DNA from: Blastococcus sp. CT_GayMR19
GTDB taxonomy: Bacteria > Actinomycetota > Actinomycetes > Mycobacteriales > Geodermatophilaceae
Length of the DNA stretch: 64,000 bases
Reading direction: 5' to 3'
Assembly (NCBI RefSeq): GCF_004570385.1
Contig: NZ_SPQL01000009.1
Span: 62,001-126,000, forward strand
Part shown: piece by piece, positions 24,024-53,601 of the stretch
Layout: each line of letters starts with the position of its first letter
Position numbering within the stretch: the first letter of the stretch is position 1
Notes under the pieces: generated by a model
The model's input: only the letters and a program-made list of their open reading frames with translations
Databases searched by the model: none
Told to the model about the DNA's origin: nothing
Position numbers and translations under genes: made by a program

Positions 24024-24308
24024 GTGCGCAGGGATCTCGCCAACGCACGGATGGGGCAGCTGGTCGGATGGGACGGCCGCACCTACGCCATTCGCACGCC
24101 GCGGATCGAGGTCGCCGAGGTCGAGGCGCTGATCGAGTCGGGGTGCCCGGTCGTCACCTACTTCCCGGGCGGGCGGCTGGTCTGGCACGACGAGGACGAC
24201 GCCTGGCCGACCTGGGCCGACGCGCGGAGTGCGGCGGAGACGGTGACCGGCGGGCGGTGGGAGTCACCGGACGGATCGCTCGCGGTGGTGCTCGTCTGGC
24301 ACGACTGA
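24024..24308 (+). CDS. Small protein of unknown function
   Basis: A 94-residue acidic, Trp-containing protein. GTG at 24024 is preferred because a TAGCGT box at 24011-24016 ends 7 nt before it, which suggests a leaderless transcript; ATG at 24051 is an alternative. Visible features are ARMGQLVGWDGRTYAIRTPR and a C-terminal VVLVWHD. No domain recognised. It is convergent with ctaA. Confidence 0.5.
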   Translation: MRRDLANARMGQLVGWDGRTYAIRTPRIEVAEVEALIESGCPVVTYFPGGRLVWHDEDDAWPTWADARSAAETVTGGRWESPDGSLAVVLVWHD

Positions 24309-24338
24309 GGATCGCTGCCGACGGAAGCCGGGTTCCGA

Positions 24339-24444
24339 CGAGTGGGGGGCCGGAGGCCTCCCCGAGGAGGGACGGCTGGGCTCAACGAAGCTCGGGGACG
24401 GCTCGTGGCCGCGGTGCCGTCCGGTAGGACGGCAGTGTCACAGC
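24339..24444 (+). repeat. Dispersed structured repeat, copy A
   Basis: About 106 bp. The core at 24395-24444 has a 22-bp block identical to copy B, then a perfect 6-bp hairpin (CCGTCC-GGTA-GGACGG) and an identical TGTCACAGC end. Copy B has TCGGCC-GATA-GGCCGA at the same place, so both arms changed together. Outer parts share GAGTGG and a GGAG/CTCC palindrome. This copy covers the 3' end of ctaA and its downstream region. Confidence 0.75.
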
Positions 24445-25317
24445 GCCGCGCACGGACCACACGAGCCGCGCCGTGAACGCGGTGATCAGGACCGCGCCGA
24501 GCATGTGCACGAGCACCAGCGCGATCGGCAGGTCGGTGAAGTACTGCACGAAGCCGACGACGCCCTGGGCGAGCTGGACGATCAGCAGGTCGCGCACGGC
24601 CCGCCGGATCCGCCCGGGGGAGTCGGTCGCGGACAGGGCGAGCAGCAGCGCCACGGTCAGGCCGACCAGCAGGAAGACGAGATCGGCGTGCAGCTGACTG
24701 ACCGTCTCCGGGTCGAAGTCCATCCGGTCGGCCGCGTTCCTGTCGCCGCTGTGCGGTCCGGCGCCGGTGACGACGGTGCCCAGGACGAGGACCGCGGCTG
24801 TCACGGCCGCGATGCCGTGGATCAGCAGCTCGAACGGACGCCGGAGCAGCGGCTGCCCGACGCCCGGTTCGCGGGAGCGCAGCCACAACGTCGTCGCGAC
24901 GGCGACCAGGACCATCGACACCAGGAAGTGCGCGGCGACGGTCCACGGGTTGAGCTCGGTCAGCACGGTGATGCCGCCGAGCAGCGCCTGCGCGGGGATG
25001 CCCAGGAAGCTGACGACGGCCAGCGGCCGCAGGTCCCGGCGGGCCGATCGCCAGACCACGATCACGGTGGCGATCGCGACCGCGGTGAGCACGAAGGTCA
25101 GCAGGCGGTTGCCGAACTCGATCGCCCCGTGCGCGGCGAGCTCCGGAGTCGCCACGAAGCTCTCGTCGGTGCAGCGCGGCCAGGTCGGGCACCCGAGGCC
25201 CGATCCGGTGAGCCGCACCAGCCCGCCGGTGACGACGATCGCGCCGTTGGCGACGACGTTGGGCAGCGCGACCCGGGAGGCGGTGGCGGGGGAGAAGGCG
25301 GTGGGCAGGACCGGCAC
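24382..25317 (-). CDS. ctaA: Heme A synthase (COX15/CtaA family)
   Basis: A 311-residue membrane protein with eight predicted helices that oxidises heme O to heme A. Family marks are NGAIVVTGGLVRLTGSGLGCPTWP with the conserved Cys, EFGNRLLTF, AHFLVSMVL and QLHADLVFLLVG, whose His residues bind heme. GTG at 25317. The last roughly 20 residues (VTLPSYRTAPRPRAVPELR) are encoded by the dispersed repeat and have no role in the fold that I can see. Confidence 0.93.
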   Translation of the reverse strand: MPVLPTAFSPATASRVALPNVVANGAIVVTGGLVRLTGSGLGCPTWPRCTDESFVATPELAAHGAIEFGNRLLTFVLTAVAIATVIVVWRSARRDLRPLAVVSFLGIPAQALLGGITVLTELNPWTVAAHFLVSMVLVAVATTLWLRSREPGVGQPLLRRPFELLIHGIAAVTAAVLVLGTVVTGAGPHSGDRNAADRMDFDPETVSQLHADLVFLLVGLTVALLLALSATDSPGRIRRAVRDLLIVQLAQGVVGFVQYFTDLPIALVLVHMLGAVLITAFTARLVWSVRGAVTLPSYRTAPRPRAVPELR

Positions 25318-45637: not shown

Positions 45638-45754
45638 GAGCTCATCCTCGCGGGACGCCAACCTGCACGGGGGAGTTCCGCTCGATAAGCCCTCGGGCGG
45701 GTGATGCCGCCGACATCACCTCCGATGCATGCGTGGTAGCGCCCCGGGGACGCC

Positions 45755-45760
45755 TACCCT
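45755..45760 (+). promoter_or_regulatory. Candidate -10 box for leaderless ABC-F mRNA
   Basis: TACCCT ends 7 nt before the GTG at 45768, with no ribosome binding site between. The spacing fits a leaderless transcript. Confidence 0.4.
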
Positions 45761-45767
45761 GGGCTCA

Positions 45768-47369
45768 GTGATAACGACGACCGGCCTCGAGCTTCGTGCC
45801 GGCGCCCGCATCCTCATCAGCGACGCCGCGCTCCGCGTGCAGCCCGGCGACCGCATCGGGCTGGTCGGGCGCAACGGGGCCGGCAAGACCACCACCCTCA
45901 CCACCCTGGCCGGGGAGCGCGTCCCGCACGCCGGCAAGGTCGACGTCGTCGGCGAGATCGGCTACCTGCCGCAGGACCCGCGCAGCGGCGACCTCGACAT
46001 CACCGCCAGCGACCGGGTGCTGTCGGGCCGCGGCCTCGACGTCCTCAAGAACCAGCTCACCAAGGCCCAGGTGGCCATGGCCGAGCCGGCCGACGACGAC
46101 GAGCGCGACAAGGCGGTCCGCCGGTACGGCCGGCTGGAGGACCAGTTCGCCGCCATGGGCGGGTACGCCGCCGAGAGCGACGCGGCCCGGATCTGCACCA
46201 ACCTCGGCCTGCCCGACCGCGTGCTGGCCCAGCCGCTGCGCACCCTCTCGGGTGGTCAGCGCCGCCGCGTCGAGCTGGCCCGGATCCTGTTCTCCGACGC
46301 CGAGACGCTGCTGCTCGACGAGCCGACCAACCACCTGGACGCCGACTCGATCACCTGGCTGCGTGGCTTCCTGACCAGCCACCGCGGCGGGCTCATCGTG
46401 ATCAGCCACGACGTCGAGCTGCTCGAGGCCGTCGTCAACAAGGTGTGGCACCTCGATGCCAACCGCGCCACCGTCGACATCTACAACCTGGGCTGGAAGC
46501 GCTACCTCCAGCAGCGGGAGACCGACGAGCGCCGGCGCAAGCAGGAGCGGGCCAACACCGAGCGCAAGATCGACACGCTCAACGCCCAGGCCGACAAGAT
46601 GCGGGCGAAGGCCACCAAGGCCAAGGCCGCCAAGAGCATGGACAAGCGCGCCGAGCGGCTGGCCTCCGGGCTGGCCGACGTCCGCGTGCAGGACAAGGTC
46701 GCGAAGCTGCGCTTCCCGACCCCCGTCGCGTGCGGCAGGACCCCGCTCACCGCGGAGGGGCTGTCCAAGAGCTACGGCTCGCTGGAGATCTTCACCGATG
46801 TCGACCTCGCGGTGGACAAGGGGACCAGGGTGGTCGTGCTCGGACTCAACGGCGCCGGCAAGACGACGCTGCTGCGGATGCTGGCCGGCACCGAGAGTCC
46901 CGACACCGGCGAGGTCAAGGCCGGGCACGGGCTGCGGGTGGGCTACTACGCCCAGGAGCACGAGACGATCGACATGGACCGCAGCCTGCTGGAGGTCATG
47001 CGGTCCGCGGCGCCGGACAGCACGGACACCGAGCTGCGCCGGATCCTGGGCGCCTTCCTCTTCTCCGGCGAGACCGTGGACCAGCGGGCGGGCACGCTGT
47101 CCGGCGGGGAGCGGACCCGGCTGGCCATGGCCACGCTGGTGGTCTCGGGTGCCAACGTGCTGCTGTTGGACGAGCCGACCAACAACCTGGACCCGGCCAG
47201 CCGCGAGCAGGTGCTCGAGGCCCTGCGCACCTACGCCGGCGCGATCGTGCTGGTCACGCACGACGAGGGCGCCGTGCACGCGCTCAACCCCGACAAGGTC
47301 ATCCTGCTGCCCGACGGCACCGAGGACTCCTGGAGCGAGGACTTCGCCGACCTGGTGAGCCTCGCCTAG
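45768..47369 (+). CDS. ABC-F family ATPase (ribosome-associated type)
   Basis: A 533-residue protein with two ATP-binding cassettes and no membrane segments. Walker A motifs are GRNGAGKTTT and GLNGAGKTTL; signatures are LSGGQRRRVELAR and LSGGERTRLAMAT; Walker B motifs are LLLDEPTNHLD and LLLDEPTNNLD. The inter-domain linker is Lys/Arg-rich (residues about 240-310). ABC-F proteins act on the ribosomal E site in translation control or antibiotic protection; which applies here is open. GTG at 45768 is chosen from the -10 spacing. Confidence 0.93.
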   Translation: MITTTGLELRAGARILISDAALRVQPGDRIGLVGRNGAGKTTTLTTLAGERVPHAGKVDVVGEIGYLPQDPRSGDLDITASDRVLSGRGLDVLKNQLTKAQVAMAEPADDDERDKAVRRYGRLEDQFAAMGGYAAESDAARICTNLGLPDRVLAQPLRTLSGGQRRRVELARILFSDAETLLLDEPTNHLDADSITWLRGFLTSHRGGLIVISHDVELLEAVVNKVWHLDANRATVDIYNLGWKRYLQQRETDERRRKQERANTERKIDTLNAQADKMRAKATKAKAAKSMDKRAERLASGLADVRVQDKVAKLRFPTPVACGRTPLTAEGLSKSYGSLEIFTDVDLAVDKGTRVVVLGLNGAGKTTLLRMLAGTESPDTGEVKAGHGLRVGYYAQEHETIDMDRSLLEVMRSAAPDSTDTELRRILGAFLFSGETVDQRAGTLSGGERTRLAMATLVVSGANVLLLDEPTNNLDPASREQVLEALRTYAGAIVLVTHDEGAVHALNPDKVILLPDGTEDSWSEDFADLVSLA

Positions 47370-47419
47370 TAGTTCTAGCGGCGCCGTAGTTCTAGTGGTG
47401 CCGTAGTTCTTGTCGCGCC
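47369..47419 (+). repeat. Three 17-bp tandem repeats after the ABC-F gene
   Basis: GTAGTTCTAGCGGCGCC (47369-47385), GTAGTTCTAGTGGTGCC (47386-47402) and GTAGTTCTTGTCGCGCC (47403-47419) follow each other without spacers. The first begins on the last base of the ABC-F stop codon. The block ends exactly where dispersed repeat copy B begins. Confidence 0.9.
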
Positions 47420-47525
47420 GAGTGGAGGCCCGGAGGGTCTCCGCGCAGGCGCGACGCAGCGGCTCCGCTCAGGCCGGGACGGCTCGTGGCCGCGGTGTCG
47501 GCCGATAGGCCGACGATGTCACAGC
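47419..47525 (+). repeat. Dispersed structured repeat, copy B
   Basis: About 107 bp, same orientation as copy A. The core 47476-47525 agrees with copy A at 43 of 50 positions. Four of the seven differences are paired changes in the two hairpin arms (TCGGCC and GGCCGA), which keep the stem perfect. It begins 9 bp beyond the stop of the minus-strand hemerythrin gene. Confidence 0.75.
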
Positions 47526-47533
47526 CCGACAGA

Positions 47534-48262
47534 TCACATCGCGAAGCGCCAGGCCACTGCTTCACGACGGGCGTGGCGGGCGCGGGTGAGGACCAGCATC
47601 ACCCGCAGGCTCTGGCCGACGGAGCGGAACGCGGCCTCCAGCTGCTCCGGCGTCAGCCCGTCCGCGACCCAGGGCACGAGGAAGAGCAGGTCCCGGGCGC
47701 TCTTGCCCGAGCCGGCCGCGTTCTCGACCCGCTCCCACCCCTCGGCGGACAGCAGCCGCTGCACCAGCGGCAGCGCCTCGGTCTCCTCGTGCCCCATGTG
47801 GTGGGACAGGGTGTCGCGGGCGGTCTCCGTGGTGGCGGCCAGCCGGTCGCGGGTCGCGGCGTCCGGCCCCTGCGCCATCGCGGCGAAGCCGTCGGCGCAC
47901 GCCTGCAGCAACGGGTCGATGAGGTCGTGCTCGGCCTCCATGGCCTCGAGCGTCGCCCGGCCCTCGGCGTCCCCGGCCGCGTCGACGATCTCGAGCAGCT
48001 GGGGCCACAGGACGTCGTCCTCGGTGGTGTGGTGGTGGTGCAGGATCCCGCTGAACTGCTCCCAGCGGACCGCCAGTGCGCGCCAGACCTCGGTGGCGTC
48101 CATCGGCGTCTCCCGGGCGGCGACGGCGAAGCGGGCCAGGTCGCGGCGGAAGGCGTGGTGCGCCATGTACATGCCGTTGAGGTCCAGCGGTCCCTCGGCC
48201 ACGTGCGCCTGACCGGGCAGGTCCATCAGGGGGCCGGTCGCGGGCCGGGTGGTGGTGGTCAT
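47534..48262 (-). CDS. Hemerythrin HHE domain protein
   Basis: A 242-residue protein with a His/Glu-rich four-helix bundle: MYMAHHAFRRDLARF, FSGILHHHHTTEDDVLWPQL, MEAEHDLIDPLL and LSHHMGHEETEALPLV supply the expected di-iron ligands. Such proteins bind O2 or NO or act in redox sensing. ATG at 48262 is preferred because AGGAGAGGA lies upstream; the frame is open further. A C-terminal extension of about 75 residues follows the bundle. Confidence 0.9.
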   Translation of the reverse strand: MTTTTRPATGPLMDLPGQAHVAEGPLDLNGMYMAHHAFRRDLARFAVAARETPMDATEVWRALAVRWEQFSGILHHHHTTEDDVLWPQLLEIVDAAGDAEGRATLEAMEAEHDLIDPLLQACADGFAAMAQGPDAATRDRLAATTETARDTLSHHMGHEETEALPLVQRLLSAEGWERVENAAGSGKSARDLLFLVPWVADGLTPEQLEAAFRSVGQSLRVMLVLTRARHARREAVAWRFAM

Positions 48263-48661
48263 CGACGGGAGTCCTCTCCTACGGGCTGGGAGGACGTCGT
48301 GTCCTCCGGTGGCGACAGCGTCGGACGCACGACTTGAGCCGTACTTGGGAAGGACTTGGGGCGCTGCACTTCGTCGGCCTCCGTCCGACACCGCGACCAG
48401 GAGGCGTCCCCGGCCTGGGCCGAGCCGCTGCGTCGTGCCTGCCCGGGACCCTGCGGGCCCCACTCGGCACGAGCCGCTCCACTCACCTGTGGATACCGAC
48501 GGTTCTCGCGTGGCCGACGCGGGGAGCGTGGGTGATCATGGGCCGGGATGTCGCGGTCAGCGGGACGGCGGCGCCAGCAAGACGGACAGCCACCACCGGG
48601 CGCGCGTCGGACGACTCCGCCCGGGGTTGACATGGGCCGGCGGCTGACACGGAGGGAAGTC
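48263..48661. other. 399-bp divergent intergenic region (hemerythrin / HTH)
   Basis: No convincing gene. It holds a perfect 7-bp hairpin (GGAGGAC-gtcgt-GTCCTCC, 48289-48307) in the hemerythrin leader and three heptamers (ACTTGAG, ACTTGGG, ACTTGGG) at 48332, 48343 and 48354, exactly 11 bp apart. The ribosome binding site GGAGG of the HTH gene is at 48651-48655. Confidence 0.5.
48332..48360. promoter_or_regulatory. Three phased heptamers, operator candidate
   Basis: ACTTGAG, ACTTGGG and ACTTGGG start every 11 bp, one helical turn, 70-98 bp upstream of the hemerythrin start. Direct repeats with this phasing are typical of response-regulator or activator sites binding one DNA face. The regulator is unknown. 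Confidence 0.45.
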
Positions 48662-53524: not shown

Positions 53525-53535
53525 GACGCCTCCAG

Positions 53536-53578
53536 GGAGCCGTCTTGTCGCTGTCCGGGTACGGCACCACTCGTCCGG
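53536..53578 (-). promoter_or_regulatory. Guanidine-III riboswitch
   Basis: Read on the minus strand, the segment begins CCGGACGAG, continues with GCCGTACCCGG and ends ACAAGACGGC, the conserved blocks of the guanidine-III (former mini-ykkC) class, in the right order and size. It stops 11 nt before the SMR start codon, so the pseudoknot can control access to the ribosome binding site. Guanidinium binding is expected to switch the exporter on. Confidence 0.88.
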
Positions 53579-53601
53579 GGGACCGTTCCGGGCCCACCAC
53601 G

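Follow-up and report, generated by a model that had tools for sequence, protein, structure and literature searches.

A dispersed ~114-bp element with two hairpins at gene ends in Blastococcus and other Geodermatophilaceae

Introduction

The Geodermatophilaceae are radiation- and desiccation-tolerant actinobacteria of soil and stone. In one member of this family, Blastococcus sp. CT_GayMR19 (here the host), a 64,000-nucleotide stretch of DNA (the window) contains two similar sequences, designated copies A and B, which a first-pass annotation described as copies of a dispersed element of about 106 bp. The locus raises the question of what kind of element this is, how widely it is distributed, and why its copies lie where genes end.

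Three copies of the element in the window

Copies A and B were found to belong to a family of dispersed, structured elements of ~114 bp, of which the window contains a third member, copy C, that had been overlooked in the first-pass annotation (Table 1). The identical 22-bp block that A and B had been said to share is indeed present (the core block of Table 1), as are the shared right ends TGTCACAGC (24436-24444 and 47517-47525) and the compensated arms, i.e., CCGTCC/GGACGG in copy A and TCGGCC/GGCCGA in copy B. The right-end coordinates of both copies were correct, while their left ends had been placed ~8 nt short because the 5' arm of an upstream nested hairpin, here termed H1, was missed. 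Chance is excluded as a cause of the resemblance, since the 22-bp block with up to three mismatches has 55 matches in the host genome versus 8 for a reversed control, and a 20-bp part of it occurs three times in the window versus a mean of 0.17 in shuffled sequences. The outer arms of H1 are degenerate in copy A.

Table 1. Positions of the element copies, their modules and neighbouring genes in the window (CM, covariance model; window offset 62000)
Feature	Position	Strand	Basis or remark
Copy A, whole	24331..24444	+	CM match G000:C42:86331-86440; right end extended to TGTCACAGC by end logo
Copy A, nested hairpin H1 (variant arm class GGTTCC..)	24331..24373	+	sequence, alignment
Copy A, conserved core block	24395..24416	+	alignment; genome-wide pattern search
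Copy A, hairpin H2 (CCGTCC-GGTA-GGACGG) and right end TGTCACAGC	24417..24444	+	sequence
COX15-CtaA-family gene	24382..25317	-	enters copy A and ends inside it, TGA at 24382-24384
ABC transporter ATPase gene, left (sense) neighbour of copy B	45729..47369	+	family match
Copy B, whole	47411..47525	+	CM match G000:C42:109411-109521; right end extended by logo
Copy B, nested hairpin H1	47411..47455	+	sequence
Copy B, conserved core block	47476..47497	+	alignment; genome-wide pattern search
Copy B, hairpin H2 (TCGGCC-GATA-GGCCGA) and right end TGTCACAGC	47498..47525	+	sequence
Hemerythrin-domain reading frame, right (antisense) neighbour of copy B	47534..48463	-	ORF, domain match
Copy C	48366..48474	-	CM match G000:C42:110366-110474; 3-mismatch core match

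The placement of A and B at the 3' end of a minus-strand gene was correct as far as it went. Plus-strand reading frames (ending at 24308 and 47369) also precede both copies, which therefore lie between convergent genes. The frame upstream of copy A has no Pfam match, and its end is conserved in relatives; on the other side, the COX15-CtaA gene of element-free relatives has a different, native C-terminus. Copy C sits between divergent genes and overlaps the listed start of the hemerythrin frame, whose true start is thus probably located downstream. This frame is bracketed by copies B and C in inverted orientation (47411-48474). In several congeners a lone element comes after the ABC-transporter gene; next to it is sequence that looks like the region upstream of an HTH_58 gene, and no hemerythrin gene was seen in the 330 nt examined. 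The hemerythrin cassette may have entered at, or together with, an element. Just upstream of copy B, at 47378-47404 on the plus strand, a hairpin with a tail rich in T resembles a terminator and may be the one native to the ABC-transporter gene. A scan for U-tract terminators returned none inside copies A, B or C, and an intrinsic terminator of this type was rejected as the nature of the element.

Modular architecture of the element

The element is composed, in order, of the nested hairpin H1, a conserved core, a second hairpin, H2, and the end TGTCAYNGC. H1 has an 8-bp outer stem, a 7-bp inner stem and a GGA loop (plus-strand consensus TGTCGYGCC GAGTG GGGCCC GGA GGGYTCC GCGCA GGCRCGAC) and is followed by a linker that contains a nearly invariant GGCTC. 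The core has the plus-strand consensus GGGACGGCWCSTGGCCGCGGTG, and H2 has a stem of 7-8 bp with a GGA or GGNA loop (CGGTCC GGA GGACCG or TCGTCC GGA GGACGA and similar), beyond which the right-end consensus is CRRTGTCAYNGC. A logo of 102 right ends reads TGTCAYNGC, i.e., GCNRTGACA in antisense with the tag RTGAC, while that of 82 left ends reads KGTCG.. and is not the reverse complement of the right end. Each letter of TGTCA is kept in 13 to 18 of the 20 copies without an antisense right gene, indicating that the end belongs to the element and not merely to the neighbouring gene. Conservation of columns over 70 sites is ~15 times more uneven than binomial, the strongly conserved segments including GGCTC and the core, which points to continuing constraint. 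A long core helix (GCGGC/GCCGC) was considered and found to be unsupported by eye.

Either hairpin can be repeated, H2 in steps of 31 nt and H1 at the locus of the ribose-phosphate diphosphokinase gene (prs), and whole units occur in tandem at a spacing of 84-87 nt. At loci L160, L305, L307 and L310 the region from prs to the next gene contains H1-like modules in tandem, two or three in number, of which the extra ones are devoid of a core. H2 was rejected as a standalone unit, since 101 of 108 H2 matches overlap a full element or lie within 250 nt of one; the other seven are located farther away.

Distribution of the element

The first-pass annotation had proposed a search of the whole genome and of relatives for further copies at gene ends with compensated stems, and many such copies were found. 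A covariance model built from 27 host copies identified 95 units at 75 sites in the host genome, with two to five tandem units at 12 of these sites. Copies are present in 47 of 57 sampled Geodermatophilaceae genomes (46 of the 51 of good quality), several of which carry at least ~67 copies, with up to 67 candidates scored per genome. The ten genomes without copies are nine many-contig drafts of genera g6, g9 and g11 (with a completeness of 90% or more in four) and G040, a 99% complete genome in which no copies were detected and whose sampled congeners have them. In an order-level sample 18 of 150 genomes matched, all of them Geodermatophilaceae, and in a phylum-level sample of 296 genomes the only match was the host itself; these searches, each over 40 genomes (family, order and phylum), used stricter filters by which weak matches are lost. 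An exact scan of a genome collection with the core pattern returned at least 117 stretches; among the matches listed, 79 of 80 loci were titled Blastococcus, Geodermatophilus, Modestobacter (all genera of the Geodermatophilaceae) or Geodermatophilaceae bacterium, the remaining one being titled as an unverified Bacillus. As far as sampled, the element is restricted to the Geodermatophilaceae.

A plasmid search with one host copy returned no match, and viral carriage was rejected, as the lone exact core match in viral contigs had no H1 or H2 around it by eye and was taken as chance. A known Rfam RNA was likewise rejected, no family matching the element in the window or at three host loci: at the gathering score the window has a single match, to a Guanidine-III riboswitch (RF01763, 63.1 bits, 53534-53598, minus strand) outside the element, and at E values up to 1 the three loci yielded only a weak IRES match, also outside it. 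A search of the open-access literature found no such repeat family described for Geodermatophilaceae or Blastococcus; in the available portion of PMC9686282, for example, 'palindrom' is used only for CRISPR.

Covariation of the hairpins and the folded strand

Covariation was assessed on hand-picked host copies without large indels (28 for H2 and 22 for H1) against 500 shuffles. For H2, 97.8% of cells are paired (84.2% when shuffled) and 36 cells are double-changed (12.4 when shuffled); pairing, double-changed cells and the covariation score were unmatched in all 500 shuffles, while two of the five measures stood at shuffle level, i.e., pairs with a double change (5 versus 4.0) and pair types (9 versus 8.5). 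For H1, where 96.7% of cells are paired (88.4% when shuffled) and 22 are double-changed (5.3 when shuffled), all five measures were unmatched. The copies are related, so that these cells are non-independent events, and template switching in quasi-palindromes could yield compensated stems without selection. In both hairpins the signal was lost when partners were slid as a control.

In a wider set of 166 copies, H2 could be parsed in 147 and H1 in 124, the apex pairs being invariant by selection because parsing required a CCGG(N)AGG-like apex. Of the 1029 cells in the seven inner pairs of H2, 989 are Watson-Crick, and the remainder shows a slight strand bias (16 G-U and 4 A-C). This bias is far stronger in the inner stem of H1, where the plus strand has 138 G-U versus 2 A-C cells (168 versus 9 under a looser parse), and weaker in its outer stem (47 G-U and 22 A-C, with arms placed by score). 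As a G-U pair on the plus strand corresponds to A-C on the other, the ratio of 138 to 2 implies that the plus strand folds, either as RNA or as single-stranded DNA. The same inner-stem bias is observed where the left gene is not in sense orientation (57 G-U versus 5 A-C), which suggests that it originates with the element itself and not with host mRNAs. Furthermore, gene orientation has only a weak effect on hairpin integrity, H2 being paired in 95.7% of cells with an antisense right gene versus 92.4% without, and H1 in 90.3% versus 87.2%, which argues against a purely host-mRNA role.

Gene context and stop codons

Copies are found predominantly downstream of genes. The neighbouring genes of 99 copies from the host and its relatives are convergent in 54 cases, codirectional in 42 and divergent in 3; this set derives from 106 copies (76 from relatives and 30 from the host), seven of which were dropped for short flanks, and it omits 13 of the relatives' 89 CM matches (tandem neighbours, partial or weak copies). 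For 90 of the 95 host copies, tandem units included and five lacking flank sequence, the corresponding numbers are 47, 32 and 11. By comparison, a rough gene call of the window gave 12 convergent, 25 codirectional and 11 divergent pairs among 48, and the depletion of divergent pairs is smaller in the host copies (11/90) than in the mixed sample (3/99).

Where the right gene is antisense (122 copies), its stop codon falls exactly on the first three antisense bases of the element in 42 (38 TGA and 4 TAA). In the others it is located 3 nt before the end (10), otherwise at most 12 nt before it (19), farther before it (38), or inside or beyond it (13). Before 18 of these 42 stops the final sense codon has A as its third base, as against 1.0% over the preceding 38 codons, and this codon is therefore largely element sequence. 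The antisense end of the element (GCN[A/G]TGACA) thus often supplies the last codon and the stop of the abutting gene. At five loci (L050, L042, L084, L090 and L047), each from a different genome of Blastococcus, Geodermatophilus or one further member of the family, the element adjoins the native stop of a carboxyltransferase-like gene ending in KKHGNIPL, which we take to be pccB/accD. The structure of the 60 nt past the gene end was not clearly different between empty and filled ends, z being below -2 in 14 of 46 and 7 of 16, respectively, under mononucleotide shuffles.

Orthologous gene ends and the history of the copies

Six host gene ends with an element at the stop were compared by eye with 80 orthologous ends from congeners, the genes being, by family search, dnaA, pafA, prs, glpX, the beta subunit of a 2-oxoacid:ferredoxin oxidoreductase and a helicase-like gene. 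The same stop of the helicase-like gene is occupied in two of 11 relatives, the others sharing the same native last codons and stop, beyond which the sequence is unrelated. At pafA an element is located at the stop in two of 13 relatives, and in a third it directly follows the stop in the opposite orientation. A full copy is fused at the stop of prs in seven of 14 relatives, and a single copy is found near glpX in one of 15. Downstream of dnaA, copies occur in several orientations and at several distances, and in one of the 12 relatives a full copy directly adjoins the stop. About six tandem 13-nt repeats span the stop-codon region of dnaA at locus L282 (G057). The oxidoreductase gene has an element in four of 15 relatives, two of which carry short tandem repeats between the stop and H2; the carriers end in a CAA or CGA codon and a stop, like the end of the element, and several non-carriers end one or two residues later. 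The tandem repeats (L328 in G059 and L338 in G058) are ~15 nt long, of the type ACACGGTGCACATCG, and resemble the right end of the element.

The sites of copies A and B themselves are also variably occupied. At site A the host and G038 have an element in the same position and G059 has one 26 bases away; inspection by eye revealed none in the remaining 11 of the 14 aligned genomes. Site B, downstream of the ABC-transporter gene, is occupied in one orientation in six of 15 genomes, including the host, and in the other orientation in two. At three of the ABC-transporter ends (L210 in G063, L212 in G062 and L221 in G043) a different palindrome class, CGTGGTCATCAG-N-CTGATCGCCACGAG, was seen, the element not being visible by eye. 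When copies at orthologous sites were compared with 77 parsed host copies, the host copy at the same site was the nearest in four of 24 comparisons, fourth or better in nine, and 22nd or worse in nine. The comparison of the host with G038 at site A ranks last among the 77, while at the oxidoreductase site of G038 the copy at the stop, beside which lies a degenerate tandem neighbour, ranks 18th. These mixed ranks, together with the patchy presence, indicate that the occupancy of sites is partly inherited and partly reflects revisiting or overwriting. Among the 77 parsed host copies no dispersed pair exceeds 90% identity, while tandem pairs reach 99%, so that spread within the host genome is not recent. 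At the empty sites inspected, where flanks are too diverged to read them, no target-site duplications were recognised.

Comparison with known repeat families

The element was filed under small non-autonomous structured repeats. The BOX elements of Streptococcus pneumoniae are modular, their end modules differing from each other and their repeated modules varying in number. The present element is like BOX in this description and differs in that either end module (H1 or H2) is repeatable. Mycobacterial interspersed repetitive units (MIRU) are also actinobacterial and intergenic, occur both in tandem and dispersed, and overlap stop and start codons at DTGA sites; compared by description rather than sequence, the present element differs in being a hairpin element found most often between convergent genes. 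The Rickettsia palindromic elements are structured repeats of 100-150 bp that join neighbouring reading frames, as described in the available portion of PMC2229807; in contrast to these, which insert inside ORFs and encode an internal peptide, the present element caps the C-terminus with a last codon and stop.

The closest comparison is with the GTAG- and CGTC-tagged REPs and BIMEs, as described in part of PMC3733652, which likewise are short, covarying, end-tagged hairpins, dispersed mostly downstream of genes, with G-T pairs in their stems and one end that often gives a stop codon, the GTAG end being reported to supply stop codons. The element differs from them in being a 114-bp two-hairpin unit with a conserved core, whereas the GTAG REP unit is a single palindrome of 20-40 bp, and in its tag RTGAC, which provides a TGA or TAA stop. 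CGTC-tagged REPs, for which the same text reports no dedicated transposase, have a terminal CGTC/TGTC, a stem of 8-9 bp, a loop of 4-5 nt and a CCA tail, as against the H2 stem of 7-8 bp, the GGA/GGNA loop, the end TGTCAYNGC and a consensus without a CCA tail. The words Actinobacteria, Geodermatophilus and Frankia are absent from the main text of that paper.

A TnpA_REP-like transposase, which the first-pass annotation had suggested as a partner, was not encountered: the Y1/HUH transposase family PF01797 has matches in none of the 57 family genomes, as against five of 14 control genomes, and the element is consequently not a RAYT-mobilised REP. Membership of the GTAG REP/RAYT class was rejected on tag, transposase and unit size. 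Nor was an autonomous partner found between H1 and H2 in the host. The best candidate stretch, C1:148117-149334, was rejected because it encloses an ordinary reading frame, which we take to resemble a NUDIX hydrolase.

Discussion

The reading that we regard as probable, judging from sequence comparisons, is that these copies form a family of ~114-bp non-autonomous REP/BOX-like elements which would spread in single-stranded form to gene ends, and whose hairpins would act at transcript ends. Copies would be propagated as single-stranded DNA or RNA by an enzyme other than a detectable Y1 transposase, and would land at gene ends or only be tolerated there. The hairpins may then form, between adjacent and often convergent genes, a transcript-end structure that works in termination or as a barrier to 3'-5' decay, and this may help the element to be retained. 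The strand bias of H1, seen regardless of host gene direction, appears to favour a mobility intermediate, while the gene-end location, the depletion between divergent genes and the long-term constraint would favour a tolerated or useful transcript-end role; the two are compatible and can both be true. The initial proposal of a selected structure, be it a REP-like element, a terminator or stability element, or a non-autonomous mobile element, is thus supported, and although these three options are not fully separable, a dispersed element that is non-autonomous and probably acts at transcript ends agrees best with the data.

Among the other explanations, two are possible, if distinctly less likely. 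One of them views the element as an old, domesticated host structure, i.e., a bidirectional terminator or RNA-stability hairpin that is inherited vertically, homogenised by recombination and no longer mobile. The low identity of dispersed host copies next to near-identical tandem ones, the strongly uneven column conservation, the orthologous-site copies that rank nearest or fourth or better, and the native KKHGNIPL stop occupied across genera are all consistent with this view; the patchy presence at orthologous ends, the differing orientations and offsets downstream of the same gene, and the nine of 24 comparisons in which the orthologous-site copy ranks 22nd or worse argue against it. The other, to which we would give similarly limited credence, is a mobile 'stop-codon cap', whose insertion would be aimed at stop codons by a system other than Y1/RAYT, the end of the element carrying the last codon and stop. 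If this were true, the same stop would be hit repeatedly in different species, and C-termini would be rewritten and a structured 3' end installed in a single step.

A classical REP, i.e., a GTAG-type palindrome moved by a RAYT (TnpA_REP, Y1 HUH) transposase, would account for hairpins beside a short terminal tag, for the location at gene ends and for the provision of stop codons to neighbouring ORFs, which is reported for REPs in the available text of PMC3733652, yet it is very unlikely given the lack of PF01797 matches in the family, a tag that is not GTAG, and a ~114-bp unit with two different hairpins of which H2 stands alone in just 7 of 108 matches. Hardly any more credible is the view that the copies encode, on the plus strand of the element, an independent family of small RNAs or riboregulators; the strand-specific G-U bias in H1 and conserved segments such as GGCTC and the core would suit it, but tens of copies per genome, a location tied to gene ends, the lack of a promoter-like site near A or B in a scan for sigma-70 type promoters, and the lack of an Rfam match to the element do not. 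Size and copy number would also fit a MITE, dependent on a cut-and-paste (DDE) transposon and marked by terminal inverted repeats and target duplications, but this is the least probable explanation of all, since the ends (KGTCG.. on the left and TGTCAYNGC on the right) are not mutual inverted repeats; no duplications were recognised, in flanks at the inspected empty sites that are too diverged to decide.

These copies bring to the Geodermatophilaceae, for which the literature search found no such family described, an abundant family of structured repeats, and with it a dispersed element that is fused to gene ends with codon precision, those of dnaA and prs included. As orthologous ends with and without the element can be compared across many species, two questions become testable, i.e., how REP-like repeats without a RAYT spread, and whether they are kept for a function at transcript ends.
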